Shown: one piece after another, positions 7,101-31,125 of the stretch
Layout of the letters: the number at the start of each line of letters is the position of its first letter
Numbering within the stretch: position 1 is the first letter of the stretch
IMG/VR virus record: IMGVR_UViG_3300036985_002314
Span: 1 to 31,574 of that record
From: a virus
Direction: 5' to 3' (one strand)
Length of the DNA: 31,574 bases
Position numbers and translations under genes: made by a program
The notes under the pieces: model-generated
Database searches by the model: none
Told to the model about the DNA's origin: nothing
What the model saw: the letters and a program-made list of their open reading frames with translations, nothing else

Positions 7101-10100
7101 TTTAAGTGGTACAGTAGGTACCTCAGGTCTATCAGGTCTAAGTGGTACATCAGGTATAAACGGTGATTCAGGACTTTCAGGCTTATCCGGTTTATCTGGT
7201 TTAAGTGGTATAGGTACATCAGGTATATCAGGAACTTCAGGTTTGTCAGGTAACTCAGGTTTAAGCGGTTTATCAGGTATTTCAGGTACATCAGGTATAA
7301 GTGGTATTTCAGGTTTATCAGGTACAAGTGGTATTTCTGGTCTAAATGGTACTTCAGGTTTATCAGGTTTAAGTGGTGAAAGTGGTTTATCAGGCATATC
7401 AGGTCTATCAGGTCTAAGTGGTACATTAGGTACTTCAGGCCTATCAGGTTTAAGTGGTACATCAGGTATTTCAGGTACATCAGGTATAAGTGGTATTAAT
7501 GGTGATGGTCAATCAGGAGCAAGTGGTTTAAGCGGTACTTCTGGTCTTTCAGGAACATCAGGTCTTTCAGGCTTAAGTGGACAATCAGGTACAAATGGAA
7601 CTTCAGGTTTAAGTGGTTTATCAGGTACAAGTGGTACAAATGGTGATTCAGGTTTATCAGGTACAAGCGGTATCTCAGGTTTAAGCGGAGTATCAGGTTT
7701 ATCAGGAACATCAGGTACAAGTGGATTAAGTGGTGAATCAGGTTTATCTGGTTTATTAGGAACATCAGGTATATCAGGTACATCTGGTACTTCAGGTTTA
7801 AGTGGTACTTCCGGGTTATCAGGTGAAAGTGGTTTATCAGGTATTAATGGTATATCAGGAATTTCAGGCACAAGTGGTCTTTCTGGTTTATCAGGTGAAT
7901 CCGGTTTATCAGGACAATTAGGTTCATCAGGACTTTCAGGTACAAGTGGTTTATCAGGATTATCAGGAACATCAGGTATTTCAGGTCAAAGTGGTCTTAA
8001 TGGAGATGCTCAATCAGGCGCTTCAGGTTTTAGCGGTTTATCAGGTTTATCAGGTACAAGTGGACAATCAGGTCTTTCAGGTCAGTCAGGTATAAATGGA
8101 ACATCAGGACTTTCAGGTACAAGTGGTCTTTCTGGTACATCTGGTTTAGATGGTACAGGAGGAACTTCTGGTTTATCAGGTACAAGCGGTTTATCAGGTA
8201 CATCAGGTTTAGATGGTATATCAGGTTTATCAGGACTTTCAGGATTAAGTGGTATTTCAGGTACATCAGGTTTAGATGGTACAGGAGGAACTTCTGGTTT
8301 AAGTGGTGCTTCAGGATTAAGTGGAGCAAGTGGTTTAAGTGGTACTTCAGGTTTAAGTGGTTTATCAGGAACATCAGGTTTATCTGGTCAATCAGGTTTA
8401 AGTGGTACAAGTGGTTTACAAGGTATAACAGCAGGCCAAACATATTACTTTAATGAAAGCCAAAACTCAGATGTTTCAGGATATAAAGTATTATCGGCTA
8501 CACCATCAACTGCATCTCAACAAACAGTAACAACAAATTTAACAGGAAATCAACAAAATGTTCTTGTTTCAGATTATATAACTCCACAATTAGGATTCGC
8601 AGTAATTCCTGCTGGTGTTCAAAGATTCCATTTACACTATCTAAAACCTGCATCTAATAATGATATTGATGCTTATGTTGAAATACAATTAGCAGATTCA
8701 TCTGGTACACCTATAGGACCAACAATAACATCTAACATTGCCTTAATTGGTTGGGTTAGTAATGTAATTCCTGTTGAGGTTAATGTTGATATTGTATTAC
8801 CAACAACAACAATTGACCCAACAAATAGAATGATTGTTAGGTTATATTTGAATAATAATACAGCATCATCAAAATCAGTTATTTACTATACTGAAGGTAA
8901 TTCATATTATTCATTTGTTGTAACAACAGTAGGATCTATTGGTAATTCAGGTTTATCAGGTACAAGCGGTTTATCAGGAACTTCAGGTTTATCAGGTTTA
9001 AGTGGTCTCTCAGGACTTTCAGGACTAAGTGGTACATCAGGTACAAGTGGTCTTTCTGGTACATCTGGTTTAGATGGTACAGGAGGAACTTCTGGTTTAT
9101 CAGGACTTTCAGGTACAAGCGGTTTATCAGGTCTATCAGGTATAAATGGAACTTCAGGTTTAAGTGGAACTAGTGGAATTTCAGGTACAAGCGGTTTATC
9201 AGGTACAAGTGGTTTAGATGGTACAGGAGGAACTTCAGGTTTATCAGGTACATCAGGCTTATCAGGCACAAGCGGTTTATCAGGAACATCAGGTATTGAT
9301 GGAACATCAGGACTAAGTGGTACATCAGGTCTATCAGGAACATCAGGTTTATCAGGTCTTTCAGGTACAAGTGGTTTATCAGGTTTATCCGGTATCTCAG
9401 GAACTTCAGGTTTAGATGGTACAGGAGGAACATCAGGATTAAGCGGTACAAGTGGTCTAAGTGGAACTTCAGGTTTATCAGGTACAAGTGGCTTATCAGG
9501 GGTATCAGGATTAAGTGGAACAAGCGGTTTAAGTGGTACATCAGGTATTAGTGGTTTATCAGGTCTTTCAGGTATATCAGGTATTGATGGTACAAGTGGA
9601 TTATCAGGATTAAGCGGTACATCAGGACTTTCAGGAACATCAGGTCAAAATGGTGCTTCAGGTCAAGTAGGAACTTCAGGTTTAAGTGGCACTTCTGGTT
9701 TATCAGGAACATCAGGTTTAAGTGGTACATCAGGTCAAAATGGCGCTTCAGGACAAGTTGGAACATCAGGACTTTCAGGTGAATCAGGCCAAGTAGGTAC
9801 ATCAGGTTTAAGTGGTACATCAGGACTTTCAGGAACATCAGGCCAAAATGGTGCTTCAGGTCAGATTGGTACAAGTGGTTTAAGTGGAACTTCAGGTTTA
9901 TCAGGAACATTAGGTACAAGTGGCTTAAGTGGTACTTCAGGTATAGATGGCACTTCAGGTTTAAGCGGTACATCAGGTCTTTCAGGTACAAGTGGCTTAA
10001 GTGGTACTTCAGGACAAGTAGGTACTTCAGGTTTATCAGGTCAATCTGGTATAGATGGAGCATCAGGCCAAGTTGGCACATCAGGATTAAGTGGTACTTC

Positions 10101-13100
10101 TGGTTTATCAGGAATATCAGGTATAAGTGGTACATCTGGCTTAAGCGGTACAAGTGGCTTATCAGGTCTATCAGGACTTTCAGGCCAATCAGGTCAAGTA
10201 GGAACAAGTGGTCTTTCAGGTGCTTCAGGATTAAGTGGCAGAAGTGGTCTTTCTGGTTTATCTGGTTTATCAGGTGAATCAGGTATATCAGGTCGTTCAG
10301 GTATAAGTGGTATTTCAGGTTTATCAGCGGCGACTGCAATTACTAACAATCAAAATAATTATGTTGTAACAGCTACAGGAAACTCAGCTACTCCATTTAA
10401 TGGTGAATCTGGTTTACAATATGGTGGTGAACAATTACAAGTAAGAAATTCAATAAATATTTCTAGTGGAAGTGAAAATTTTGAGATAAATCAAGGACCA
10501 AATCCTACCCAATCAATAGCTATTGGTAATGATATATTAACTAATAACATATCCGGATATTCAAATATTGGTATAGGTCAAAATGTAATTGGTAATAATA
10601 TAGATGGATTTCAGAATGTAGCTGTTGGTGGTGGCGCATTATATCAAAATGCAAATGGTGATGGTAATACAGCACTAGGATATTCATCTTTATCAAATGT
10701 TTCTGGTAGTTTTAATGTAGGTATTGGATGGGATGCTGGAGCAATGGGTGGTGGTGATTTATCAACATCAGCTTCAACATTTATAGGAGCAGGTTCTGCT
10801 CCAAATTCTAATAATCAAACTAATCAAATTGCTATAGGTTATCAAGCCGTAGGTAATGGCTCAAATACAACAGTAATAGGTAATACAAATACAGTTAGTA
10901 CACAATTACAAGGAACTATAACAGGTTCTGGAGTACAATTAACTTCTATACCTGTAGGTACAACTGAAACAAGAATATTAGTATCAAACGCTTCAGGAAA
11001 TGTATTTTATAGAACTAATTTAAGTTTAACTGGTTCATCAGGTTTATCAGGTGAAAGTGGTTTAAGTGGTCATTCAGGTTTATCAGGTTTATCAGGAACA
11101 TCAGGTATTGATGGTACATCAGGTTTATCAGGTTTAAGTGGTCGTTCAGGATTATCAGGAACTTCAGGCCAAATAGGAACTTCAGGACTTTCAGGCACAA
11201 GTGGCTTAAGTGGTACATCAGGACAAAACGGGGCTTCAGGCCAAGTAGGTACTTCAGGCTTAAGTGGAACAAGTGGCTTAAGCGGAACTTCAGGTCTTTC
11301 AGGTACATCAGGTCAAAATGGAGCATCAGGTCAAGTAGGAACATCAGGACTCTCAGGCCAATCAGGTATAAATGGTACAAGCGGTTTAAGCGGTACTTCA
11401 GGTTTAAGTGGAACATCAGGCCAAGTAGGAGCTTCAGGTCAAGTAGGTACTAGTGGTTTAAGCGGCACAAGTGGCTTAAGTGGTACATCAGGACAAAATG
11501 GGGCTTCAGGCCAAGTAGGTACAAGCGGTTTAAGCGGTACAAGTGGTTTAAGTGGCACATCAGGTTTATCTGGTACATCAGGCCAAAATGGTACTTCAGG
11601 TCAAGTTGGAACAAGTGGTTTAAGCGGTACTTCAGGATTATCAGGTACAAGTGGCTTAAGTGGTACATCAGGCCAAAATGGCGCCTCAGGACAAGTTGGT
11701 ACATCTGGTCTTTCAGGTACATCAGGTTTATCAGGTACAAGCGGTATTTCAGGTACTTCAGGACTTTCAGGAACATCAGGCCAAAATGGAGCTTCAGGCC
11801 AAGTTGGAACAAGTGGCTTAAGTGGTACAAGTGGTTTATCAGGAACTTCAGGACTTTCAGGAACATCAGGTCAAAACGGAGCTTCAGGTCAAGTTGGAAC
11901 TTCAGGACTTTCAGGTACAAGTGGTCTTTCAGGTACATCAGGTATCTCAGGCCAATCAGGTCAAGTAGGTGCTTCAGGACAAATAGGAACAAGTGGATTA
12001 AGCGGTACTTCAGGTTTATCAGGTACATCAGGTCTTTCAGGTCAATCAGGCCAAGTAGGAGCATCAGGACAAGTTGGAACAAGCGGTTTAAGCGGTACAA
12101 GTGGCTTAAGTGGTACAAGCGGTATTTCAGGTACATCAGGTCAAAATGGTGCTTCAGGACAAGTAGGAACATCAGGTCTTTCAGGCCAATCAGGTATAAA
12201 TGGTACAAGTGGTTTAAGTGGCACTTCAGGATTAAGTGGTACTTCAGGTCAAAATGGTGCTTCTGGACAAGTAGGTACTTCAGGCTTAAGCGGCACTAGT
12301 GGTTTAAGTGGCACAAGTGGTTTAAGTGGTACTTCAGGTCAAGTAGGAGCATCAGGTCAAGTTGGTACATCTGGTTTAAGCGGTACATCAGGACTTTCAG
12401 GTACAAGTGGTATATCAGGAGCTTCAGGACAAGTAGGAGCCTCAGGACAAGTAGGTACAAGTGGTTTATCAGGAACATCTGGTTTATCAGGTTTAAGTGG
12501 CCGTTCAGGTTTATCAGGCCAATCAGGTATAAATGGGGCTTCAGGCCAAGTTGGTACTTCAGGATTAAGTGGCACCTCAGGATTAAGTGGGACTAGTGGT
12601 TTAAGTGGCACATCAGGTCAAAACGGAGCATCAGGACAAGTAGGAACAAGTGGTTTATCAGGAACATCTGGTTTATCAGGAACTTCAGGCCAAGTAGGAG
12701 CCTCAGGACAAGTTGGTACTTCAGGCTTAAGTGGAACTTCAGGTCTTTCAGGTCAATCAGGCCAAGTTGGGGCTTCAGGCCAAGTTGGAACAAGTGGTTT
12801 ATCAGGAACATCAGGCTTATCAGGAACATCAGGTCAAAATGGCGCATCAGGACAAGTAGGTACAAGTGGCTTAAGTGGTACAAGCGGTTTATCAGGAACT
12901 TCAGGTCAAGTCGGAGCATCAGGACAAGTTGGTACTAGTGGTTTAAGTGGCACAAGCGGTTTAAGCGGCACTTCAGGAGCTTCAGGACAAGTAGGTGCTT
13001 CAGGTCAAGTAGGAACATCAGGTTTATCAGGCCAATCAGGCCAAGTCGGAGCTTCAGGACAAGTTGGTACTTCAGGTCTTTCAGGAACATCAGGTTTATC

Positions 13101-15021
13101 AGGTACATCAGGCCAAGTTGGAGCTTCAGGTCAAGTAGGTACTTCAGGTCTAAGTGGAACATCAGGTTTATCAGGTTTATCAGGTAGATCAGGACTTTCC
13201 GGTACATCAGGCCAAAACGGCGCTTCAGGTCAAGTCGGAACATCAGGTCTCTCAGGTACTTCAGGTCAAGTAGGAGCCTCAGGACAAGTTGGAACAAGTG
13301 GATTAAGTGGTACTTCAGGTCAAGTAGGAGCATCGGGCCAAGTAGGAGCATCAGGCCAAGTTGGTACTTCAGGTCTCTCAGGTACATCAGGTCAAAATGG
13401 TGCTTCAGGCCAAGTTGGTACTTCAGGTTTAAGCGGTACATCTGGTCAAAATGGTGCTTCAGGCCAAGTTGGAACAAGTGGCTTGTCAGGTACAAGTGGT
13501 GCTTCAGGTCAAGTAGGAGCTTCAGGTCAAGTAGGAACATCAGGTCTCTCAGGTACTTCAGGCCAAGTAGGAGCCTCAGGTCAAGTTGGTGCTTCAGGAC
13601 AAGTAGGTACTAGTGGTTTAAGTGGTACATCAGGCCAAAACGGCGCTTCAGGTCAAGTTGGTACTTCAGGATTAAGCGGTACATCAGGTCAAAATGGTGC
13701 CTCAGGTCAAGTAGGAGCATCAGGTCAAGTTGGAACATCAGGTCTTTCAGGAACATCAGGTCAAAATGGTGCTTCGGGACAGGTTGGTGCATCAGGACAA
13801 GTAGGTACAAGTGGTTTAAGCGGTACTTCAGGTCAAAATGGTGCTTCAGGACAGGTTGGTGCATCCGGACAAGTTGGTACTTCAGGTCTAAGTGGTACTT
13901 CAGGTCAAAATGGTGCCTCAGGACAAGTTGGAGCTTCAGGTCAAGTTGGAACAAGTGGTTTATCAGGTACAAGTGGTGCTTCAGGTCAAGTTGGTGCTTC
14001 AGGTCAAGTAGGTACATCAGGACTTTCAGGAACATCAGGCCAAAACGGTGCCTCAGGTCAAGTTGGTGCATCAGGACAAGTAGGTACAAGCGGTTTAAGT
14101 GGTACATCAGGTCAAAATGGCGCCTCAGGTCAAGTTGGAGCTTCAGGACAAGTTGGAACAAGTGGATTAAGTGGTACATCAGGCCAAGTAGGCGCTTCTG
14201 GTCAAGTAGGAGCCTCAGGTCAAGTCGGAGCCTCAGGTCAAATCGGAGCTTCAGGACAAGTAGGAACATCAGGACTTTCAGGTTTATCAGGCCTAGTAGG
14301 ACCAGTAGCAGGATCAGCAAATCAAGTAGTTTATAAAAATGGATCTAACGTAGCATCAACAACATCAAGTTTTGCATTTACTGATACTAATGGCTCAATA
14401 GCATTATCAGGAACCGCCCCTATATCATTAACAGGAACAGGTACAGGTAATGATCAAACATTGATATATAATAATACAACTAACTACACAATGTTAGATT
14501 TATCATCATCTTACCCTTATTTAAATATTAAACGAAGAGGACAAGGTACTTCAACATTATGGGTAGATGGTGCTAATTTTAGAGTAGGTATAAATGGAAT
14601 AACATCACCAGCTCAAAGTTTACATGTTTCTGGAGAAATTATAGCAACAGGAAATATCACAGCTTATTATTCAGATGAAAGACTTAAAAAAGATATTGAA
14701 CCATTAACTCAAGCTTTAGATAAAGTTAATACATTACAAGCTGTAACTTATTACCAAAATGAATTAGCTGATGTATATTTAGAACCTAACACAGAAAAAC
14801 AAATTGGTGTTTTAGCTCAAAATATACAAAAAGTATTACCAGAAGTAGTTAAACCAGCACCTTTTGATATTATTAGAGATGAAAATGATAAAATAGTTAG
14901 TAAAACTGGTGAAAATTACTTAACAGTACAATATGAAAAAGTAGTACCATTATTAATTGCTGCTATTCAAGAGTTAAATGATAAAGTAAATAATTTAGAA
15001 GAACAACTTAAAAATAAATAG
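4171..15021 (+). CDS. Giant Gly-X-Ser repeat tail fibre with C-terminal S74 chaperone
   Basis: This 3616-residue protein is built of a short N-terminal anchor (1-35), three Gly-X-Y repeat blocks (36-1416, 1591-2052, 2288-3377) and three folded parts. In the repeats Y is almost always Ser and X is Leu, Thr, Ile, Gln, Val or Ala; there is no Pro or Lys in the blocks. Island 1417-1590 looks like a beta-sandwich. Island 2053-2287 contains YadA-like beta-roll repeats (about 2115-2240, NTALGY-type motifs). The end (3378-3616) has a beta-rich stem and then an S74 intramolecular chaperone starting [15 protein letters not shown]. The S74 catalytic pair is Ser3501 and Lys3506; known members cut at this Ser after trimer assembly, which would release about 115 residues. 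The start overlaps the gp15-like gene by 14 bases. The role as a trimeric host-recognition fibre is inferred from architecture. Confidence 0.85.
4276..8418 (+). repeat. Gly-X-Ser coding repeat block 1 (9-nt triplet units)
   Basis: Tandem 9-base units of the form GGN-NNN-(TCA/AGT/AGC/TCT) encode about 1380 residues of Gly-X-Ser. Typical pairs are Gly-Leu-Ser Gly-Thr-Ser, with Gly-Thr-Asn Gly-Asp-Ser inserts. This block has many two-residue breaks in the triplet phase (GF, GI, GA, GL, GV, GD before the next Gly), such as GASGFGTSG and GLSGIGSSG. Confidence 0.95.
8419..8940 (+). other. Folded island in the first fibre, probable beta-sandwich
   Basis: Residues 1417-1590 of the giant fibre are non-repetitive. 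They begin with a TYYFNES segment, include [13 protein letters not shown], and end with [15 protein letters not shown]. Alternating hydrophobic strands and the aromatic ends suggest a jelly-roll or similar beta-sandwich. Domains of this look occur in the middle of phage collagen-like fibres, and I infer a spacer or sugar/receptor-binding role. Confidence 0.6.
8941..10326 (+). repeat. Gly-X-Ser coding repeat block 2
   Basis: About 460 residues (1591-2052) of uninterrupted Gly-X-Y. The first half repeats a [13 protein letters not shown] phrase several times; the second half changes to [13 protein letters not shown] phrases, foreshadowing block 3. It ends in Arg-containing triplets (GRSG) before the island at 2053. 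Confidence 0.95.
10327..11031 (+). other. YadA-like beta-roll island in the first fibre
   Basis: Residues 2053-2287. It starts with a segment nearly identical to one in the second fibre ([11 protein letters not shown], then TPF.GES). At about 2115-2240 come repeats of roughly 14 residues with the pattern N-x-A-[IVL]-G, such as [33 protein letters not shown] and QIAIGYQAV. This is the left-handed beta-roll signature of trimeric adhesin heads. Confidence 0.75.
11032..14301 (+). repeat. Gly-X-Ser coding repeat block 3
   Basis: About 1090 residues (2288-3377) of Gly-X-Y in which I found no phase break. It is dominated by [18 protein letters not shown] phrases, so X is often Gln and Val, unlike block 1 where Leu and Thr dominate. 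It ends in GLVGPVAGS, where the first Pro appears and the repeat gives way to the C-terminal stem. Confidence 0.95.
13678..14172 (+). repeat. 72-bp higher-order tandem repeat
   Basis: A 24-residue unit ([15 protein letters not shown], then GQVGTSGLS) is repeated four times in a row (13678-13965), once in a 63-base form lacking the GQN triplet (13966-14028), and twice more (14029-14172). Copies agree in amino acids but differ by synonymous bases. This looks like recent unit duplication at the end of block 3. Confidence 0.9.
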
Positions 15022-16012: not shown

Positions 16013-17344
16013 ATGACCCAAAATGATAAAATAACAGTTATCATTCATACGGAGAATGAAACTAAGTTATTAACTTTATTAGATCAATTACATCAACATC
16101 CCTTAAAGTCTCAATTTTATACTTTACAAGTTAATTGTAAAGATATTACCCCTTGGACTGATCCAATCATATTAGATAAATTAATTACTTTAGCAAGTAA
16201 TAATTACGCTATTACACCTACCCAAAATCAATCTGTTTCTTCATTAGTAGAACTTATATCTAAAACTAAAACTGAATATAGTTTAATTATAGATGAGTCT
16301 AATACACACTTTGATGTTAAAGAATGGGATACACTGTATAATACCATTTTATTAGCAAAAACTAATGACTTATCACGCCTGAATTGGGACATTAAATATC
16401 AATCTATAACATGGTTTATAGCGGATTTAATTAGTCAAAAAACAAAATTTAAATTTGCTTTAGATAATACATCTGATTCAAAACGATATAATAAAAAAGT
16501 GAATCATCTTTTATTTTATGAACGAATTATTTATATAGATGGTGGATTAGGTGACCATGTTATGGCTTATCCATTATTAGAAAAAATAGGTAAAGATTGT
16601 TATATATCTTGTATATATCCATTTTCTTTAAAACATATTGAATGTAAAGGATTTATAGATTGGACAGATGAGTTATTTGGAGGCTATAAAAGATTTGTTT
16701 ACAGTTATGGTTCAGCAAATAATTCATATACAATTATAGAAGCGTTTTTTGAAATGTATGGAGAAAAACGAGAAAAAAAAGATATATTAAATTATACAGG
16801 ACCTAAAACAAAATTTGAAAATAACACAGGTAAACCATTAGCTTTAGTTTGCACTACAGCAGCTAAAGTAGGAGGACAAGAATCTAATAAAGATTGGTCT
16901 GATCTTAAGTGGTTTAAATTAATATTTGAATTAAAACAACAAGGTTATCATATCATACAAGTAGGATCTCATAAAGATGATCAATTACCTACTACTTATT
17001 TAGAAGGTTATCCAAATGTACCTATATGTTTAGGAGGAGTAGATGGTAAATTTTTAGATAAATCAATTCCTGAATTGGCTGGTTTAATTGAAGAAGCTAG
17101 TTTATGGTTAAGTGTAGATACATTTTTTCATCATTTTGCCTCTTCTGTAAATCCATTTACTGGAGTTTGTTTGACTCCATTCTACAACAATCATGCTAAA
17201 CATTATGGTGTAAAGTATGTAGAAAAAGATTGTGGTAAAAATTACCATGATAGAAGATGGTGGTTAGATTCTCAACAACCAGAAAGAAAAGAATGTATGA
17301 ATTTAATTCAAGTAAAAGATATATTAAATATTTTAAATAAGTAA
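16013..17344 (+). CDS. GT9-like glycosyltransferase with N-terminal GT-A-like region
   Basis: The 443-residue protein has two parts. Residues 1-130 (KITVIIHTENETKLLTLLDQL, later YSLIIDESN) look like a shortened or degenerate GT-A nucleotide-sugar fold. Residues 170-440 resemble family GT9 (heptosyltransferase type): IDGGLGDHVMAYPLL with the loop at Gly177-Asp181, a KDWSDLKWFKLI helix after a small-residue strand, IIQVGS, and the acceptor-side motif SVDTFFHHFASS with Asp369 and His373/His374. GT9 enzymes move heptose or similar sugars from ADP- or other nucleotide carriers; substrate here is unknown. It is followed after two bases by a second glycosyltransferase, both between the giant fibre genes, so the target may be fibre Ser/Thr residues. 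Host surface glycan is the alternative target. Confidence 0.82.
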   Translation: MTQNDKITVIIHTENETKLLTLLDQLHQHPLKSQFYTLQVNCKDITPWTDPIILDKLITLASNNYAITPTQNQSVSSLVELISKTKTEYSLIIDESNTHFDVKEWDTLYNTILLAKTNDLSRLNWDIKYQSITWFIADLISQKTKFKFALDNTSDSKRYNKKVNHLLFYERIIYIDGGLGDHVMAYPLLEKIGKDCYISCIYPFSLKHIECKGFIDWTDELFGGYKRFVYSYGSANNSYTIIEAFFEMYGEKREKKDILNYTGPKTKFENNTGKPLALVCTTAAKVGGQESNKDWSDLKWFKLIFELKQQGYHIIQVGSHKDDQLPTTYLEGYPNVPICLGGVDGKFLDKSIPELAGLIEEASLWLSVDTFFHHFASSVNPFTGVCLTPFYNNHAKHYGVKYVEKDCGKNYHDRRWWLDSQQPERKECMNLIQVKDILNILNK

Positions 17345-17346
17345 CA

Positions 17347-19134
17347 ATGTTAAAAACTAAATTAACTTGGTTAGCTAAATATGATGATTATGCATCAATG
17401 GGAATCTTATCTCAGCGGTTATTAGAACAATTAAATGATACTGTAGATTTAGCTTGTAAACCAATTATTGGAACAACAGAAACTAAAAATCCATTAATTC
17501 ATACTTTATTAAATAAGCCATTAAACAAAGAATTAGGAATTATGTTTTCTTATCCTGATGGTATAAATAATTTAAATGAATTTAAAACTAAAGTAATTTA
17601 TACTGGAGTAGATACAACAGGAGAAGCGGGTCAATTTGTAGCTAATGGAAACAATGCTGATTTTTTTATAACACCTTCTAATATATCAAAAAATAGAATA
17701 AAAAACTTTGGTATTAAAAAACCTATATTTGTATTACCACATGGGATTGATCCTGAAGTATTTAAATATACACCTAGAATTAAAGGAGATAAATTTAAAT
17801 TTTTATATGTTGGTGAATGTTCGGATAGAAAAGGTATATTTCATACTTTAAATGCTTTTATTGATTTATTTGGTAATAGTGATAGTGTAGAATTACATAT
17901 TAAATCGAATGATGCTATGTTATTTTACAACAGTAAAGAAGTAAAAGACATTATAAAAGATTATACTAATATATTTTGGCATATAAGTGATGAAGGACAT
18001 GATAGAGTAATTGAATTATATAAAGAATGTCACGCTTATGTTTATCCATCTAGAGGTGATTCGTTTGGAATGACTTTATTAGAAGCTATAGCTTGTGGAT
18101 TACCAACAATAGCAACTTCAGAACCAGGAGCAACAGAATTAATTAAAGGTAGATATTATAATGTTTCTACTAAATCAGTACCTGTTAAAAATCATCCTTG
18201 GTTTAAAGGAGAATGGGGTGAACCTAATCTTCAAGATTTAATAAAACATATGAAATATGTTTATGACCATTATGATTTAATTATTGAAAGTAAAGAGCTA
18301 AAAGAAAACTCAGACTATGTTAGAGAAAATTATTCTTGGGAAAAAATAGCTAATATATTTAAAAATGATATTTTACCTAAATTAGTAAAATCATCTAAAA
18401 TAACTAAAGTAATTACTTTATTAACTTCATTTGATAGACCTCATCATATAGAAAATATGATGAACTCTTTAAAAGAAATAAGAGAACCAGATTTAATAAA
18501 TGATGTTTATATAGTTGATAATTCAAATCCACAATATAAAAATGATACAGTAAAAACTGTAACTAAAAATTTAGATAAATATTTTACATTATATAATTCA
18601 AAATTTAATTTAGGTCAACGAGGTGCTTTACTTCAAATGTTAGAAGATGTAAATTTAGATGATTATGATTTTATTCAATTTACAGATCAAGATAATTTAT
18701 TTTTAGAACCAATAAGTACTTATTGTAATATATTAAATCAATTTCCAGACAAATATATAACTACAGGATATTTAAGTAAAGAACATGAAGAAATAAAATG
18801 GATTGAAACTCAATTTGGACGTTTATGTGAAAAAAAGGCATGTAGAGCAGGACATATGATGTTTAGAGTTAAAGATTTTAAAAATATGTTACCTATACAT
18901 TTAGATAGTCAACATGGTACATCATGGAATTCATCTTGGAATGCTGGTTTAGATTGGGAATTAATGTATTGGAATTCTAAAGCACCAGGACAATTAACAC
19001 AAGGTACATTTACATTATGTGTACCTGGTGGTGTAGTTCATAAAGGTTTAGATAGCACATTTGATGCTAGAGATATTGAAAAAGATGAATATACTTTAGA
19101 AGAGTTAATAGAATTAAGAAAAAATAAATTTTAA
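17347..19134 (+). CDS. Two-domain glycosyltransferase (GT4-like plus GT2-like)
   Basis: This 595-residue protein joins two transferase domains. The N-terminal GT-B part (1-340) has the GT4 core: FLYVGECSDRKG at about 152-163, then YPSRGDSFGMTLLEAIACG with the nucleotide-sugar-binding Glu246, then a TSEPGATE turn. The C-terminal GT-A part (about 352-595) begins ITKVITLLTSFDRP, a GT2-type start, has DNS in YIVDNSN, and carries FTDQDN with Asp447 and Asp449, a DxD-type metal site. A WELMYW segment near 537 and a CVPGGVVHKG segment may form the acceptor side. Such fusions can build a two-sugar glycan. It lies two bases after the GT9-like gene and is probably cotranscribed with it. Both active sites look intact. 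Confidence 0.85.
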   Translation: MLKTKLTWLAKYDDYASMGILSQRLLEQLNDTVDLACKPIIGTTETKNPLIHTLLNKPLNKELGIMFSYPDGINNLNEFKTKVIYTGVDTTGEAGQFVANGNNADFFITPSNISKNRIKNFGIKKPIFVLPHGIDPEVFKYTPRIKGDKFKFLYVGECSDRKGIFHTLNAFIDLFGNSDSVELHIKSNDAMLFYNSKEVKDIIKDYTNIFWHISDEGHDRVIELYKECHAYVYPSRGDSFGMTLLEAIACGLPTIATSEPGATELIKGRYYNVSTKSVPVKNHPWFKGEWGEPNLQDLIKHMKYVYDHYDLIIESKELKENSDYVRENYSWEKIANIFKNDILPKLVKSSKITKVITLLTSFDRPHHIENMMNSLKEIREPDLINDVYIVDNSNPQYKNDTVKTVTKNLDKYFTLYNSKFNLGQRGALLQMLEDVNLDDYDFIQFTDQDNLFLEPISTYCNILNQFPDKYITTGYLSKEHEEIKWIETQFGRLCEKKACRAGHMMFRVKDFKNMLPIHLDSQHGTSWNSSWNAGLDWELMYWNSKAPGQLTQGTFTLCVPGGVVHKGLDSTFDARDIEKDEYTLEELIELRKNKF

Positions 19135-19993: not shown

Positions 19994-22900
19994 ATGGCAT
20001 TAACATTAGGCATTTCAGGTATATCTACTGGACAACCAGTAGAAGCATCCCAAATAACTCAATCTATTGACGCTTTAACAGGTGCGGTAGCTTATGATAT
20101 AACAATAAGTGGTTCATTAACTGTTACAGGATCATTAGGTATAAATGGTACATTAAACGCAACATCTTCTAATGCAGTTTCAGCTTCATATGCTTTAACT
20201 GCATCTTACGCTTTAAATGGCGGTGGAGGAAGCGGAACATCTGGTATTTCAGGTTTAAGTGGTCTTTCAGGTATAAGTGGCCTTTCAGGTTTAAGTGGTG
20301 CTGGTACTTCAGGTTTGTCAGGTACATCAGGTCTTTCAGGTTTAGGTGGTGCGGGTACTTCAGGCTTATCAGGAACTTCAGGTTTAAGTGGTCTTTCAGG
20401 AGCTACAGGTACAGGTACAAGTGGATTAAGTGGTACATCAGGTTTATCCGGTCAAAGTGGTACAAACGGTAACTCAGGTTTATCAGGCACATCAGGATTA
20501 AGTGGCCAATCAGGTCAATCAGGTATAAGTGGTCAAAGTGGTATTGATGGAAATGGTCAATCAGGTATTTCAGGTACAAGTGGTTTATCAGGTTTATCAG
20601 GTGCTACAGGTACTGGTACAAGTGGTTTATCAGGTACAAGTGGTCTTTCAGGACTAAGTGGTACAAATGGTAATAACGGTGACTCAGGTATTTCAGGTTT
20701 AAGTGGTCTTTCAGGACTAAGCGGCCAAAGTGGTACTAATGGAAGTGGTACATCAGGTATAAGTGGAACTTCAGGTTTATCAGGTCAAAATGGTACTAAT
20801 GGAGATTCAGGCTTGTCTGGTACTTCAGGTTTATCTGGTTTAAGTGGTACATCAGGTACTAATGGTAACTCAGGATTATCAGGTACATCAGGTATAAGTG
20901 GTCAATCAGGTATAAGTGGTATTAATGGTAACGGTCAGTCAGGAGCGTCAGGTTTTAGTGGTACATCAGGTTTATCAGGTACATCAGGTCTTTCAGGCTT
21001 AAGTGGACAATCCGGTACAAATGGTACTTCAGGTTTAAGTGGAACTTTAGGTTTAAGTGGTTTATCAGGTCAAAGTGGTACAAATGGTGATTCAGGTTTA
21101 TCAGGTACATCTGGTTTAAGTGGTCTCTCAGGAGCTACAGGAACTGGTACAAGTGGATTAAGTGGTACAAGTGGTCTTTCAGGCTTATCAGGTACAAGTG
21201 GTACAAACGGAAACTCAGGATTAAGTGGCACTTCAGGTTTATCAGGCCAAAGTGGTACAAATGGTAATAACGGTGACTCTGGACTTTCAGGTACAAGTGG
21301 TTTATCAGGTTTAAATGGAACTTCAGGTCTATCAGGAACATCAGGTATTTCAGGCACAAGTGGTCTTTCAGGACTTTCAGGTACAAGTGGAGATTCAGGT
21401 CTTTCAGGTACTTCAGGCCTATCAGGTTTAAGTGGTACATCAGGTATTTCAGGTACATCAGGTATAAGTGGTATTAATGGTGATGGTCAATCAGGAGCAA
21501 GTGGTTTAAGTGGTACTTCAGGTTTAAGCGGTTTATCAGGAACTTCAGGTTTAAGCGGTACTTTAGGTTTATCAGGTATAAGTGGTCAAAGCGGTCAAAA
21601 TGGTACAAACGGAAACTCAGGTCTTTCTGGTACAAGCGGTTTATCTGGTCTTTCAGGAACTTCAGGAATATCAGGAATATCAGGATTAAGCGGTACTTTA
21701 GGTTTATCAGGTATTTCAGGTACATCAGGTATTAATGGTAACTCAGGTCTCTCAGGAACATCTGGTTTGTCAGGCTTAAGTGGTACATTAGGCTTAAGTG
21801 GTCTTTCAGGACAATCAGGAACAAATGGTAACTCTGGTTTATCAGGTACAAGTGGCTTAAGCGGCACATCAGGCTTAAGTGGTATTTCAGGTACAAGTGG
21901 TCAATCAGGAATAAATGGTAACTCAGGTCTCTCAGGTACATCAGGTTTATCAGGATTAAGTGGTACATCAGGCTTAAGTGGTATTTCAGGTACAAGTGGT
22001 CAAAATGGTACAAACGGAGACTCAGGTCTTTCAGGTACATCAGGTTTATCAGGTTTAAGTGGTACATTAGGTCTTTCAGGTATAAGTGGTCAAAGCGGTC
22101 AAAATGGTACAAACGGAGACTCAGGTTTATCAGGAACAAGTGGCTTATCAGGTACATCAGGTTTAAGCGGTACTTTAGGTTTATCAGGTATTTCAGGTAC
22201 ATCAGGTACTAATGGTAACTCAGGTCTCTCAGGAACATCTGGTTTGTCAGGCTTAAGTGGTACAAGTGGCCAATCAGGCATAAACGGTAACTCAGGACTT
22301 TCAGGTACATCAGGATTAAGCGGTTTATCTGGTTTAAGTGGTACAAGTGGTCTTTCAGGCTTATCAGGAACATCAGGTCAATCAGGAATAAATGGTAACT
22401 CAGGTCTCTCAGGTACATCAGGTTTATCAGGATTAAGTGGTACATCAGGCTTAAGTGGTCTTTCAGGTACAAGTGGCCAATCAGGACTTTCAGGTACATC
22501 AGGACAATCAGGAACAAATGGTGACTCAGGTATTTCAGGCACAAGTGGTCAATCAGGTTTAAGTGGTACAAGCGGTCAATCAGGACTTTCAGGAATATCA
22601 GGTCAATCAGGTTTATCAGGAACATCAGGTCAATCAGGACTTTCAGGAACATCAGGCCAATCTGGTTTAAGTGGCACAAGTGGCACCTCAGGTATTTCAG
22701 GTACAAGTGGCCTTTCAGGTACATCAGGTCAATCAGGTTTAAGTGGTACAAGTGGTCAATCAGGACTTTCAGGAACTTCAGGTCAATCAGGACTTTCAGG
22801 TACATCAGGACAATCAGGAACAAACGGTGATTCAGGTCTTTCTGGTACAAGCGGTTTATCAGGATTAAGTGGTACATTAGGCTTAAGTGGTATTTCAGGT

Positions 22901-24796
22901 ACAAGTGGTCAAAATGGTACAAACGGAGATTCAGGTCTCTCAGGAACATCAGGTTTATCAGGATTAAGTGGTACCTCAGGTATTTCAGGTACAAGCGGCC
23001 AATCAGGACTTTCAGGAACATCAGGTCAATCAGGACTTTCAGGTGCAAGTGGATTAAGTGGTACTTCAGGTATTTCAGGTACAAGTGGTCAATCAGGACT
23101 TTCAGGAACATCAGGTCAATCAGGACTTTCAGGAACTTCAGGCCAATCAGGACTTTCAGGAACTTCAGGCCAATCAGGACTTTCAGGAACTTCAGGCCAA
23201 TCAGGACTTTCAGGAACATCAGGTCAATCAGGACTTTCAGGAACATCAGGTCAATCAGGACTTTCAGGAACATCAGGTTTATCAGGATTAAGTGGTACAA
23301 GTGGCGACTCAGGACTTTCAGGTACAAGTGGTCAATCAGGTTTAAGTGGCACAAGTGGCCAATCAGGTTTATCAGGAACTTCAGGCCAATCAGGAATTTC
23401 AGGTACATTAGGACAATCAGGTATAGATGGTACATCAGGATTAAGTGGTGAATCAGGTTTTTCAGGCATAGAGGGTACATCAGGTTTAAGTGGCGAAAGT
23501 GGCTTATCAGGTGAATCTGGTCTTTCAGGTATAGATGGTACATCAGGAATTTCAGGAACTTCAGGTATATCAGGTCGTTCAGGCTTATCAGGTCTTTCAG
23601 GAACTTCAGGTATTTCAGGCTTAAGTGGCACATCAGGTATCTCAGGTATATCAGGTACATCAGCAGCAACAGCAATTTCATCAGGCAATGTAAATAATTA
23701 TGTAGTAACAGCTACAGGAAATTCAGGAACTCCATTTCAAGGAGAATCTAATTTAACATTTGATGGTTCTAAATTAAATGTTACTGGAAACATAACAAGT
23801 AGTGGAGATATACAAGTTAATGGTATGACAGTAGGTAATGGACCTACTTCTGTAGATTCTAATACTGCTGTAGGTAGCCAAGCGTTACAAGCGCAAACAG
23901 GAGGAATTGCAAATACTGCTATAGGAGGAAATGCAATGTATCTTTCATCAGGTGGTTCAGATAATACAGCATTAGGATTTGCTGCAGGACAAGATATAGA
24001 AGGTAATGGTAATACAGCTTTAGGTAGAGCAACTTTATCTGCAACTAATTTAGCAGGAAGTTACAATATAGGAATTGGATATTTTGCCGGGTTGGCAGTC
24101 ACTGCAGGAAGTGGTAACATATTAATAGGCTCAGGTTCAGGTAGACTTATAACTAATGGTAGTGATAATGTTATTATAGGTGGACATCCAGGTTCTGCTT
24201 CTTTAACTAAAGTTGTAGCTTTAACTGATGCTTCAGGTAGTGTTATTTTATGGGGTACAGGAAGTAAAGTAACTATAGGAGCAGCAGCTACACCAAACGC
24301 TACATTAGATGTTAGAGGTGATACAGTGATTACAGGTTCATTAGTAGTAACAGGAAGCCAAACAATTACAGGTTCATTAACAGTAACAGGAAATATTACA
24401 AATATTTTAGGAATGGGATTTGTAAGTTGTAGCTTATTAGTAAGTGGTTCATCAACAGTTCAAAGAGCATTTTCAGCTTCATTTAAAGATGTAGATGGTA
24501 CATCAATACCACGAGCTCAATCAATACATTGGTGGACAAGTGGTACAGAAACTGGATCAGCATCAACACCAACAGCTGGAGCAGGACCTGTTACATACTT
24601 AGTAGTTTCAGGTAGTAATATTGTACCTATATCAAATTCAGGTTCAATTAATCATGCTGTAACAGACAATAATGGTAATTTTGCTGTACGTTTAACAGGA
24701 GCATCAGGTGGAACAACTCAAACTATTTGGTTTAATACAGAAGTACAAGGTATAATATACTCAATTAGTACAACAATAACAGCAGGAGCAGCATAA
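19994..24796 (+). CDS. Second giant Gly-X-Ser repeat fibre
   Basis: This 1600-residue protein is a paralogue of the first fibre in its repeats and one island. Residues 1-80 form a beta-rich base ([14 protein letters not shown], then [17 protein letters not shown]), a pattern common at the start of phage fibre stems. Residues 81-1223 are Gly-X-Y with Y mostly Ser and no Pro. The head (1224-1600) starts with a segment nearly the same as in fibre 1, then has YadA-like repeats at about 1290-1400 ([33 protein letters not shown]), a stem with repeated GSLTVTG-type motifs, and a last ~110 residues resembling an Ig-like sandwich ([28 protein letters not shown]). There is no S74 domain. It is probably a second trimeric fibre; receptor specificity cannot be judged. 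Confidence 0.85.
20234..23662 (+). repeat. Gly-X-Ser coding repeat block of the second fibre
   Basis: About 1140 residues of 9-base Gly-X-Y units. Phrases change along the block: [10 protein letters not shown] and [10 protein letters not shown] in the first two thirds, then [10 protein letters not shown] in the last third. Phase breaks such as GAGTSG, GTGTSG, GSGTSG and GNGQSG occur mainly in the first part. Confidence 0.95.
23087..23275 (+). repeat. 27-bp tandem repeat, seven copies
   Basis: Seven consecutive 27-base units encode GQSGLSGTS. They differ only at two synonymous positions (GGT/GGC for Gly, ACA/ACT for Thr). This is the most uniform stretch of repeats in the window at the DNA level and points to recent expansion by slippage or unequal recombination. 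Confidence 0.93.
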
Positions 24797-27174: not shown

Positions 27175-27663
27175 ATGGCAGTATTAGATCCAAACGAAAT
27201 ATTTTTCACAGCGTTCGAACCGAAACAACAGAACCGTTTCATTTTATACATGGATGGAATTCCAGCGTATATTATTAAAGGAGTAGCAGCAGTGACACTA
27301 CAACAAGATACAGTTACTTTAAATCACATTAACGTTCAACGTTTTGTAAAAGGTAAAAGTAAATGGGGTACTATTCAAATGACATTATTTGATCCAATCA
27401 CTCCTTCAGGAGCTCAGGCAGTAATGGAATGGGTACGTTTACATCACGAATCAGTAACTGGTAGAGATGGTTATAGTGATTTCTATAAGAAAGATTTAAC
27501 ATTAGATGTATTAGGACCAGTAGGTGATATTGTATCAGAATGGATCATTAAAGGTGCTATAATTACAGACGCGAATTTTGGTGATTACAGTTGGGATACA
27601 GAATCAACAGCTCAAAACATCACATTAACTGTACAACCAGATTATTGTATTTTAAATTTCTAA
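27175..27663 (+). CDS. Tail tube protein, gp19-like
   Basis: The 162-residue protein matches the T4 gp19 type of tail tube subunit, which stacks in hexameric rings inside the sheath. Its size is the same as T4 gp19 (163). Visible family features are QQNRFILYMDGIPAYIIKGV near the N-terminus, then KWGTIQMTLFDPI, a helix AVMEWVRLHHESVTGRDGY, and LDVLGPVGDIVSEWIIKGA, followed by a closing strand ITLTVQPDYCIL. A strong terminator comes 31 bases after the stop, ending the sheath-tube unit. Confidence 0.95.
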   Translation: MAVLDPNEIFFTAFEPKQQNRFILYMDGIPAYIIKGVAAVTLQQDTVTLNHINVQRFVKGKSKWGTIQMTLFDPITPSGAQAVMEWVRLHHESVTGRDGYSDFYKKDLTLDVLGPVGDIVSEWIIKGAIITDANFGDYSWDTESTAQNITLTVQPDYCILNF

Positions 27664-27768: not shown

Positions 27769-28512
27769 ATGGAAGAAAACAAATTTAAATTACCTACTGA
27801 AACAGTAGACTTGCCGTCAAAAGGATTACTATATCCCTCAAATAGCCCATTATCAAGCGGTAAAATTGAAATGAAATATATGACGGCGAAAGAAGAAGAT
27901 ATTTTAACTAACGCGGCTTATATCAAACAAGGTGTAGTTATTGATAAATTATTAAAATCTCTTATAGTTTCCCCTATCAATTATAATGATTTATTAGTTG
28001 GAGATAAAAATGCTATAATGATAGCAGCTCGTATTTTATCATATGGAGCATCATATGAATTTGAGTATGATGGAGTTAATCAAAGTGTAGATTTAAGTAT
28101 TTTAGATCCAAAACCATTACATCCAGACTACGAAAAAGCTAATTCAAATGATTTTCAATTTACATTACCTAATTCAGGAAATGTTGTGACTTTTAGATTA
28201 TTAAGTCATGGTGATGAAGCAAAAATTGAAGAAGAAATTAAAGGACTTAAAAAAATTAATAAAGAATCTACTAGTGAAGTAACAGTACGTTTATCTCATA
28301 TTGTAACTTCGATTAATAGTTCATCAGATAAAAAAGAAATTAGAGATTTTGTAAATAATTATTTCTTAGCTAAAGATGCTAGAGCTTTTCGTGCGTATTA
28401 TAATGAAATATCACCTGATATAGACATGAGTGTTACTTTAGTTAATTCTGATGGCGTAGAGGAGGACGTTAACCTACCAGTAGGGATTAACTTTTTTTGG
28501 CCTGACGCCTAG
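27769..28512 (+). CDS. gp26-like protein, tail assembly chaperone (short frame product)
   Basis: The 247-residue product resembles T4-family gp26 proteins: TVDLPSKGLLYP, then KMKYMTAKEEDILTN-type sequence (here EMKYMTAKEEDILTN), GVVIDKLLKSLI, and a GDKNAIMIAARILSYG helix. In T4-like phages this family is annotated as a baseplate hub or hub-assembly protein. Its place between tube and tape measure genes is that of tail assembly chaperones (lambda G/GT type), which hold the tape measure before the tube polymerises. The frame ends GINFFWPDA at TAG 28510-28512. The Phe codons lie in a run of seven T, where a +1 shift opens a further 84 residues. I judge that both a 247- and a 327-residue product are made, but this is inference. 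Confidence 0.8.
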   Translation: MEENKFKLPTETVDLPSKGLLYPSNSPLSSGKIEMKYMTAKEEDILTNAAYIKQGVVIDKLLKSLIVSPINYNDLLVGDKNAIMIAARILSYGASYEFEYDGVNQSVDLSILDPKPLHPDYEKANSNDFQFTLPNSGNVVTFRLLSHGDEAKIEEEIKGLKKINKESTSEVTVRLSHIVTSINSSSDKKEIRDFVNNYFLAKDARAFRAYYNEISPDIDMSVTLVNSDGVEEDVNLPVGINFFWPDA

Positions 28513-28753
28513 TGATAGACTTAATTTATTCTCTACAATACATGAAATTGTATTTCACGGCAATGGAGGATATGATTGGCATACTGTATATAATATGCCT
28601 ATATGGTTAAGAAAATTTACTTATAATAAACTTAAAGATCATTATTCTCCTAAAAAAGATGATGTAGTTGATGAATCAATCAAAAATATGAAAAAGGCAC
28701 CTAAAATGCCAATACCTCAACCAACATATAGTACAAGGGCATCTAAAAAATAG
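28484..28753 (+). CDS. gp51-like extension in the +1 frame, no start codon of its own
   Basis: This frame is open from 28484 (after TAG 28481-28483) to TAG 28751-28753. From GGC 28499 it encodes 84 residues: GLTPSDRLNLFSTIHEIVFHG, continuing with a NGGYDWHTVYNMPIWLRKF-type core, then a Lys/Pro-rich tail. The HEI.FHG.GGY....VYNMP.WLR pattern recalls the gp51-like protein that follows gp26 in many T4-like phages. There is no ATG, GTG or TTG before the conserved part; the first ATG (28595) lies inside VYNMP and would cut it in half. So the sequence is most likely reached by a ribosomal +1 (or -2) shift from the gp26-like frame. A missing or extra T in the sequence is the alternative. Confidence 0.7.
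   Translation, partial: GLTFFGLTPSDRLNLFSTIHEIVFHGNGGYDWHTVYNMPIWLRKFTYNKLKDHYSPKKDDVVDESIKNMKKAPKMPIPQPTYSTRASKK
28492..28498 (+). promoter_or_regulatory. Putative programmed frameshift site, seven T
   Basis: The zero frame reads AAC TTT TTT TGG CCT GAC GCC TAG. A Phe tRNA on the second TTT (28495-28497) can re-pair on TTT at 28496-28498 after a +1 slip, or on 28493-28495 after a -2 slip; both lead to GGC 28499 and the gp51-like frame. The only window in which the shift can occur is 28484-28512, set by the stop codons of the two frames. Confidence 0.55.
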
Positions 28754-28761
28754 ATGCCTTT
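28735..28761 (+). terminator. Weak terminator-like hairpin at the end of the gp51-like frame
   Basis: An 8-bp stem GGCATCTA / TAGATGCC (28738-28745 with 28751-28758) with an AAAAA loop can be lengthened by a G-T pair and two A-T pairs. Only three T follow before G, so termination would be weak. The stop codon of the gp51-like frame lies in the 3' arm, and a promoter-like motif begins directly after it. Confidence 0.4.
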
Positions 28762-28785: not shown

Positions 28786-31125
28786 ATGGCTAAAAAATCA
28801 CCAGTAACAGATTCTACTCAAGAAATGAAGGACTTCAATAAAGAAGCTGCTTCATTAGTAACTGTATTACAAGATTTAGCCACTGCTTTAAATCAAAATG
28901 CTAAACAAGCTGCTAAATTTACCCAAGAATCAGTATCAGCTTATACAGTAAGTACTAAAGACGCTATTAAATTAGCGGATAAATTAAGTGGATATAATAT
29001 TAATCTACTTAAAACTAAAGCCTCAGAAAAACAATTTAATAGAGATTTAGCTAAATTTCAACAAAATTATGCTAGAATAGCAGCGCGTATTAGTGTTTTA
29101 GAAGAAAAAAGATTAACAGCATCAAAAGAAGAACAAGTTTATATTGACAAAGCGCTTAAAAATCTTATAGCGACAGCTGAAACAATGGATAAAGCAGCAG
29201 ATCATGCTGATACTTTATCAGATAAATTTAAAGATATTAATAGTCAAACTAAAGTATTTGATAGTTTAGCGAATTTCTTTAAAGATATTCCTGTTGTTAG
29301 TAAAATATTAGGTGACTTTCAAAAAGCAGCAGACAAATCTAGAGAATCAGCTGTTAAAGGTGGAGACGCATTTAAAGCGGGAGCTAAAGAATTAGGAAAG
29401 TTAGCAGTTAAAGGTTTAGGTGCTTTAGGTGTTTCTTTTATGGTTAAAGGAATAAAAGATATAGATGAAAAAATAACATCTTTATCTAGAAACTTAAACA
29501 TAAGCAGAGGAGAAGCAGATAAATTAGCAAAATCATTTAACTCAGTAGCTAGAGATATAAAAGGTATTACTGGTAAAGATTTATCAACTGCTACTCAAGC
29601 TTTTGCTAAAACTTTAGGTACAACAGCAGTAATAAGTAAAGACGCAGCTGAAGAATTTGCTACACAAACTAAATTTTTAGGATTGTCAGTAGAAGAAGCT
29701 TCTAAATTAGTTACTTTAACTACAGCCACTAATAAAAATGCTAAAGATTTTGGTAACCAAATTAGAGGAGAAGTAATAGCAAGTAATGCTTTAAATAATA
29801 CTGCTCTTGATTATAAAGATATTACTAAAGATATAGCTAATTCAAATGCCTCTATTCAACTATCTATAGTAGGGCAAGGTAAAAGTTTAGGTCAAGCTGC
29901 TATTGAAGCTAAAAAACTAGGATTAAATTTAAACGCGGTAGACCAAATAGCAGGTTCATTATTAAATTTTGAACAATCAATATCTGCTGAATTAGAAGCT
30001 GAGTTATTAACAGGTAGAAATATTAATTTAGAAAAAGCACGTTTATATGCTTTAAATAATGACACAGCAGGTGTAGCAAGAGAAATAGCGGCTCAAGGTA
30101 TCACAACAGCAAAGTTTGCTGGAATGAACCGAATCCAACAAGAAGCTATTGCTAAATCTATAGGTATGAGTCGTGAAGACTTAGCTAAATCATTATTAGA
30201 ACAACAAGCATTAACTAATTTAGGAGTAAAAGATAAAACTGAATTAGACAAAAAAGTATTACTTCGAGTTAAAGAAATTAATGCTATTCAAGATGCAACA
30301 GCTAGAGAAGAAGCTAGAGCTAAATTAATAAAAGATTTAGGTAGTGATGAATTAGTAAGACAACAAGAAAATAGAACTTTAGCTGAATTACAAGCTGATG
30401 CTTCTCAAAAAATAGTTGAAGCATTTGATAAACTTAGTCCTTTATTAAATATAATTAATAAAGTATTTGGATATATAGAAAAAAATGTCCAACTTATAGC
30501 TTTAGGTTTAACAGCTATGGCTGCTTCTTCTGTTTTTTCTAAATTTAAAAGTCTTAAATCTGACTCAGCAAATATAGCTAGTAATTTATCTGAAGAAGCA
30601 GCGTATTCTGGTGCTAAAGTAGGTAGAGGAAAAAATGGAAGATTTACATCATTAAAAGGAAAAAAAGGTAAATTTGGAAAAGGAATAGGCATTGCTGGTT
30701 TAGCTGGTGGATTAGGATTAGATATGATTGCTAATTCTGCTGAGGAATCAGGTAACACAGGATTAGCTACAGCAGCAAATATAGGAAGTTCAGCGTTAAC
30801 AGGTGCCGCTATAGGATCAATGATTCCAGTTATAGGAACAGCAATTGGAGCTGCTTTAGGAGCAGGATATGGATTATATGAATCTATGCAACCTAAAGGC
30901 CCAGAATTTGCTGAAGGTGGTATTGTAACTGGTACAACATATAATGCTACTATAGGTGAAGCGGGTCCTGAAGCTATTGTACCTTTAGATAAATTTAATG
31001 CATTTATTGATAATATGTTAAAATCTAATGGTGAGTTAATAGCGGCTGTAAAACAAGGCGGAAATGTGTATATTGATAATAGAATGGCAGGAACAGCTAA
31101 AGCTTTAGGTACATATAAAATATAA
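28786..31125 (+). CDS. Tail tape measure protein
   Basis: The 779-residue protein sets tail length and leaves through the tube at infection. The N-terminal 200 residues are charged, Ala/Lys-rich helix with coiled-coil character. The middle remains helical with many Ala, Lys and Glu. Hydrophobic stretches at about 560-586 (VQLIALGLTAMAASSVF) and 632-706 (GIGIAGLAGGLGL, then TGAAIGSMIPVIGTAIGAAL) are the membrane-active type usual in these proteins. Near the C-terminus, EGGIVTGTTYNATIGEAGPE followed by AIVPL (about 710-734) is the standard tape-measure end motif. By the rule of thumb of 0.15 nm per residue the tail would be near 115 nm. I see no peptidoglycan hydrolase domain. It follows the assembly chaperone pair, as expected. 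Confidence 0.9.
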   Translation: MAKKSPVTDSTQEMKDFNKEAASLVTVLQDLATALNQNAKQAAKFTQESVSAYTVSTKDAIKLADKLSGYNINLLKTKASEKQFNRDLAKFQQNYARIAARISVLEEKRLTASKEEQVYIDKALKNLIATAETMDKAADHADTLSDKFKDINSQTKVFDSLANFFKDIPVVSKILGDFQKAADKSRESAVKGGDAFKAGAKELGKLAVKGLGALGVSFMVKGIKDIDEKITSLSRNLNISRGEADKLAKSFNSVARDIKGITGKDLSTATQAFAKTLGTTAVISKDAAEEFATQTKFLGLSVEEASKLVTLTTATNKNAKDFGNQIRGEVIASNALNNTALDYKDITKDIANSNASIQLSIVGQGKSLGQAAIEAKKLGLNLNAVDQIAGSLLNFEQSISAELEAELLTGRNINLEKARLYALNNDTAGVAREIAAQGITTAKFAGMNRIQQEAIAKSIGMSREDLAKSLLEQQALTNLGVKDKTELDKKVLLRVKEINAIQDATAREEARAKLIKDLGSDELVRQQENRTLAELQADASQKIVEAFDKLSPLLNIINKVFGYIEKNVQLIALGLTAMAASSVFSKFKSLKSDSANIASNLSEEAAYSGAKVGRGKNGRFTSLKGKKGKFGKGIGIAGLAGGLGLDMIANSAEESGNTGLATAANIGSSALTGAAIGSMIPVIGTAIGAALGAGYGLYESMQPKGPEFAEGGIVTGTTYNATIGEAGPEAIVPLDKFNAFIDNMLKSNGELIAAVKQGGNVYIDNRMAGTAKALGTYKI

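Follow-up and report, generated by a model that had tools for sequence, protein, structure and literature searches.

The question raised by this locus is whether a tail gene resembling T4 gene 26, which ends shortly after a run of seven T, is continued by an overlapping reading frame that has no start codon, and by which mechanism the two would be joined. The window, i.e., the whole stretch of 31,574 nucleotides that was analysed (IMG/VR virus record IMGVR_UViG_3300036985_002314), carried both frames on the same strand (Table 1). A first-pass annotation, made from the letters alone, had proposed a programmed frameshift of +1 or -2 between a gp26-like and a gp51-like sequence. The best explanation, which we consider highly probable, was that one gene yields a short protein (TAC-N) and a long protein (TAC-NC) through a +1 slip at the T run.

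The zero frame ended in CCA GTA GGG ATT AAC TTT TTT TGG CCT GAC GCC TAG, giving a product with the C-terminus GIN FF WPDA*, and the seven T occupied positions 28492-28498. The +1 frame was open from 28484, just past a +1 stop at 28481-28483, to 28753 (TAG stop at 28751-28753), and in the window contained no ATG, GTG or TTG before codon 33 of TAC-C, an internal Met. The first-pass annotation had thus placed the gp26-like frame, the T run and the startless +1 frame correctly, and the lack of a start upstream of the conserved domain of TAC-C was confirmed. Among 83 relatives examined, the zero-frame stop was found 3 to 11 codons past the site, and at 4 or 6 codons in 81 of them. The hairpin at the fusion-frame stop had a counterpart at the equal place in 68 of 76 relatives, its sequence encoding part of the conserved TAC-C C-terminus ASKK*.

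Table 1. Features of the chaperone locus and its neighbours, in window positions
Feature	Position	Strand	Evidence or remark
Tail tube protein	27175..27663	+	phrog_4542 tail tube, 5.5e-23
TAC-N, short form, T4 gp26-like, PF12322	27769..28512	+	Pfam, phrog_150, predicted fold
AAC codon preceding the run	28489..28491	+	in relatives, third base other than T whenever TTT TTT follows
Slippery site TTT TTT TGG (zero frame), run of seven T	28492..28500	+	conserved in 178/220 distinct contexts
TAC-C, +1-frame domain, gp51 C-terminus-like, 84 aa + stop	28499..28753	+	conserved motif, phrog_150 extension
Zero-frame stop, 4 codons past the run	28510..28512	+	stop spacing in relatives
Terminator-like hairpin over the fusion-frame stop codon	28734..28762	+	12-pair stem
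Tape measure protein	28786..31125	+	weak phrog_167 match (0.004); position; immuto counterpart

TAC-N matched the Pfam family T4_baseplate (PF12322; 1.7e-6, 28.3 bits against a curated cut-off of 24.5) and phrog_150, 'baseplate hub' (1.1e-11). T4 gp26 and gp51, referred to in the first-pass annotation as separate hub proteins, were both PF12322 matches, and gp51 consisted of a PF12322 domain with a C-terminal extension matching phrog_634 ('baseplate hub assembly catalyst'), both domain kinds lying within one reading frame. Since gp51 combines a gp26-like domain with a tail, it is the whole fusion, and not its second half alone, that corresponds to gp51. The 'gp51-like' label given earlier to the second frame therefore held for the C-terminal extension of gp51 and not for gp51 as a whole, gp26 being the counterpart of the short form and gp51 that of the long form. 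When the two frames were fused, the phrog_150 match, which ended at position 233 for TAC-N alone, reached position 264 of 282.

Homology between TAC-C and the gp51 C-terminus was drawn indirectly, through relatives with a -1 frameshift, because a direct profile comparison of the window TAC-C with only T4 gp51 gave no significant match (E 0.45). The window TAC-C matched TAC-C of the -1 group (E 8e-6), which matched the gp51 C-terminus (E 1.6e-5), and this chain of profile comparisons points to a common origin. Judged by its sequence, the gene is a T4-like tail assembly chaperone gene, whose short form corresponds to gp26 and whose long form corresponds to gp51. Each of eight genomes or contigs (127-191 kb) contained one TAC-N and one TAC-C, always adjacent, and no separate full-length gp51-like gene that could supply the long form was found in these eight. 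In T4 itself, genes 26 and 51 are separate and on opposite strands, which rules out frameshifting there.

As the first-pass annotation had indicated, the chaperone gene was located between the tail tube gene (phrog_4542) and the tape measure gene; the latter was assigned from a weak phrog_167 match and from phage immuto, in which the gene at the equivalent position is annotated as tail tape measure and the gene order is that of the window. TAC-N and TAC-C were modelled as separate domains. The AlphaFold model of TAC-N had a mean pLDDT of 90, and Foldseek placed the HK97 tail assembly chaperone gp13 (2ob9) far ahead of other structures in probability (0.54), the match being weak (E 0.89). Scores from VIA-align were also weak, with 3klu (B. 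subtilis YqbN) at Z 5.9, 2ob9 at Z 5.0, 5ir0 at Z 4.0 and the next structure at 2.4; these three matches all fell within TAC-N residues 1-94, and the 2ob9 alignment, covering 80 residues, was specific but weak. Neither a fold search with the TAC-C model, of moderate confidence (75.6), nor a search of PDB sequences with the profile of TAC-N returned a meaningful match. The weak fold likeness of the model and the location of the gene, with the tube gene on one side and the tape measure gene on the other, support a putative role like that of lambda G/GT.

Relatives were collected through the short domain (80) and through the second domain alone (80), with further sets obtained from Mel-JY01, LR756508, LIS04 and RM378 as queries, for a total of 220 distinct contexts; the +1 frame was counted as open when it extended over at least 45 codons or up to the contig end. 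It was open in 218 of the 220 contexts, while the -1 frame was open in 5. The probe made of the second domain alone, which involved no selection for the site, found the +1 geometry at 80 of 80 loci. The +1 domain was under purifying selection (pN/pS 0.31) and carried the conserved motif GLTPxYRxxLFxQIHEIVFHGxGGYDWxTVYNMPIWLR, and protein conservation started at the slippery run. An overlapping startless frame, a conserved direction (218/220) and a conserved slippery site (TTT TTT TGG in 178/220), as expected of a G/GT-type gene, were thus all found, and the conservation of the T run, which the first-pass annotation had asked about, was seen in most relatives. Its concern over a homopolymer error was settled as well: the seven T recurred in independent assemblies and in the cultured phages Mel-JY01 and RM378, ruling out a sequencing or assembly error.

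In public annotations, the second domain appeared as a short separate 'hypothetical protein' in immuto (L082:5851-5961), SP-15 (L094:3821-3940), RM378 (L084:4677-4853) and Mel-JY01 (L083:5749-5985), and the long form has apparently been overlooked in these four phages.

In the proposed mechanism, most ribosomes would remain in the zero frame and stop four codons past the T run, releasing TAC-N of 247 residues, and a minority would slip +1 on the Phe codons, with peptidyl-tRNA-Phe leaving UUU and re-pairing with the UUU that overlaps it, or with UUC if the fourth base is C. The slipped ribosomes would read 84 more codons and produce TAC-NC of 327 residues, with the junction NFF-GLTPSDR. The gene resembles that of lambda gpG/gpGT in lying between tail tube and tape measure genes, in its overlapping frames and in the predicted short and rare long chaperones; lambda shifts by -1 whereas the window would shift by +1, and the weak fold match was to the HK97 equivalent. 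With the partners of each domain taken by analogy from lambda (PMC5009743), the short form would coat the tape measure protein, as gpG does, and the rare long form would recruit the tail tube protein via its C-terminal domain, as gpGT does.

The slippery site varied within limits across the 220 contexts. Besides TTT TTT TGG (178), TTT CTT TGG (15), TTC TTT TGG (10), TTT TTT TAC, TTT TTT TTC and CTT TTT TGG (3 each) were found, together with single cases of TTT CTA TGG, TTT CTA TTC, TTT TTT AGT, TTT TTT CAC, TTT TTT CGT, TTC TTT CGT, TTC CTT TGG and TTC TTG TAT. Nearly every working variant retained a codon able to shift +1 (UUU to UUY, or CUU to UUU as in RF2), and no one slip codon covered all of them, TTC TTT TGG requiring the second codon and the CTA variants the first. 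The P-site tRNA slips +1 at CUU_UGA in RF2 (prfB), at UUU_CGU in influenza PA-X and at UUU-pyrimidine in E. coli; TTT CTT TGG and the TTC TTT CGT of phage GXN1 appear, by analogy, to be closely similar sites. RF2 differs in having a stop codon in the A site, where the window has a sense codon (mostly UGG among relatives), in its SD sequence, none being present at the RF2 spacing here, and in its gene and purpose.

No stimulator of the shift stood out around the site. The conserved GGCCTGAC found 3' of the run was mostly accounted for by double coding (W-P-D and G-L-T), RNAalifold predicted no conserved pairs downstream, and the mean z directly after the site was -0.73, against values from -0.2 to -0.6 for the majority of control stretches. 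No well-placed SD-like element was seen; many relatives had GAGGAGG some 26 nt 5' of the run, beyond known +1/-1 spacing. The Firmicutes phages GXN1 (L093:3001-3750), SP-15 (L094:3001-3741) and LIS04 (L085:3983-4711) shared NCC CGA after the Phe codons, possibly a second candidate +1 slip site (CCC_CGA in GXN1).

The same second frame would be reached by a -2 ribosomal shift at the seven T, with one extra Phe, as in the chaperone gene of phage Mu (PMC5009743), and with seven T, as in the window, a UUU in the P site could indeed pair again two bases further 5'. This pairing fails in relatives with TTC TTT TGG (10 contexts, the L276 group), in which Phe-tRNA would have to pair with UCU, and in those with TTT CTT TGG, in which Leu-tRNA would have to pair with UUC, although both keep the +1 frame. 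Because the TTC TTT TGG relatives cannot re-pair at -2, the +1 slip is preferred and the -2 shift is unlikely; of the two directions left open by the first-pass annotation for a frameshift linking its gp26-like and gp51-like parts, which the comparison bore out, +1 was the better fit. These two variants also bear on transcriptional slippage, by which mRNAs one T short would encode the fusion without any ribosomal slippage: a homopolymer of seven T in an AT-rich genome (35% G+C) would suit it, but the run is merely seven long and both groups of relatives keep the frames without a long run. Moreover, an eighth T was tolerated on the 3' side (TTT TTT TTC) and never seen on the 5' side, which looks like an effect of decoding rather than of run length and makes transcriptional slippage very unlikely.

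Translation of the second domain as a separate protein, from an unusual or coupled start and with no fusion, would agree with the 118 of 220 contexts that had some ATG, GTG or TTG in the +1 frame upstream of a conserved Arg, and with one lineage (L286/L291) in which the TAC-N stop is followed, 2-5 bases on, by an ATG belonging to the domain. No such codon preceded the conserved Arg in the other 102 contexts, including the window, and a +1 stop was located within 5 codons of the site in 81 contexts. The positions of start codons were not conserved, whereas conservation of the protein begins at the slippery run, and T4 gp51 joins both domain kinds in one reading frame; we hold a separate protein to be extremely improbable.

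The base preceding the run carried a signature of direction. Before TTT TTT it was C in 148, G in 31, A in 8 and T in none of 187 contexts, while T was the third base of 77% of the Asn, Ser, Thr, Asp and Gly NNY codons in the remainder of these genes. Where the run was broken, T preceded it in 8 of 33 contexts (Fisher 1.2e-7, a guide only as the contexts are related by descent), and none of 38 clusters at 60% identity had T before an intact run. The pre-run codon encoded N, S, T, D, G, K, E, R or A, always with a third base other than T, a nucleotide rule that neither protein frame accounts for. A base other than T prevents formation of the heptamer T_TTT_TTY, and the rule would reflect avoidance of -1 slippage.

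Relatives with a -1 frameshift displayed the opposite pattern. In P-SSM2, S-PM2, HTVC008M, Cr30, phiM12, KVP40, W-14 and XacN1, the base before TTT TTY was always T, giving T_TTT_TTY, and sampled cyanophage, pelagiphage and proteobacterial relatives had -1 sites mostly of this type, as opposed to the +1 branch of the window. Two loci (L309 and L310) had A_AAT_TTT as the -1 site, and Vi01 and LR756511 were -1 by frame only, their slip sites not being evident. The window did not conform to the -1 heptanucleotide, its second domain lying in the +1 frame and the base before its run being C.

In the L286/L291 lineage the run was lost (TTC TTG TAT and TTC CTT TGG), and the second domain, in another frame behind its own ATG, carried a new N-terminal stretch (L286:2160-2570, L291:2160-2511). 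Both loci were nested beside L069 and L072, whose run was already broken (TTT CTT and TTT CTA); loss of the run thus coincided with gain of a start in one lineage of two loci. The first-pass annotation had held that relatives with a conserved start codon for the second frame would speak against a frameshift, and such a start was found only in this nested lineage, which also lacks the T run. T4 gp26 ends in LKEFFELL*, in which a remnant of the Phe-Phe site may survive. On a tree, the direction label needed 4 changes for +1, but XacN1, LR756511 and RM378 were on long branches, which makes this number of switches tentative. A scenario that we regard as evenly poised is that the chaperone frameshift reversed its direction from one main branch of the T4-like superfamily to the other (T_TTT_TTY for -1, V_TTT_TTT for +1), that the non-T base before the run forbids the wrong shift, and that the site decayed at least twice to separate genes, by duplication in T4 (genes 26 and 51) and by gain of an ATG in L286/L291.

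In 2022, Vladimirov, Gautam and Davidson (Virology 566:9-15) reportedly proposed that gp26 is a TAC-N and gp51 a TAC-NC, and that certain T4-like groups make use of frameshifting. Long-tailed phages other than T4 have conserved G-T frameshifting, and -1, -2 and +1 chaperone frameshifts each occur in different phages (Atkins 2016, PMC5009743). In some T4-like phages a short gene is accompanied by a longer, fused one (PRFect, PMC10885494, paraphrasing Vladimirov et al. 2022), and poly-T -1 signals occur in T4-like TAC-N genes (PMC12846349, citing Vladimirov et al. 2022). The link between T4 and the lambda G/GT type drawn in the first-pass annotation was therefore supported but not new, the chaperone idea for gp26 and gp51 having been published in 2022 (PMC10885494, PMC12846349).

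With frameshifted T4-like chaperones and the lambda link already known, the +1 direction looks to be the new part; no description of the +1 branch, the base rule or the loss lineage was found in the literature, and Vladimirov 2022 may already report +1 cases. Over 200 sequences from one large branch conserve this direction, while sampled relatives from the other branch slip backward, which makes it testable what decides whether slippage at a U run goes forward or backward. T4 gp26 and gp51 belong to the same family (PF12322/phrog_150) and have the same short and long forms as the gene of the window, but are encoded by two genes on opposite strands instead of one gene with a +1 frameshift. The two-gene solution of T4 was thereby tied to a state, seen in its relatives, of a single gene with a frameshift.

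Elsewhere in the window, two giant repeat proteins with collagen-like SGLSG/SGTSG units, probably both fibre proteins, were encoded at 4171-15021 (3616 aa) and 19994-24796 (1600 aa). The first ended in a Peptidase_S74 chaperone domain (PF13884, 1.7e-15) and the second had a PF01391 match. Between these fibre genes, inside the tail module, two glycosyltransferase genes (PF01075 and PF00534) were located at 16013-19134.
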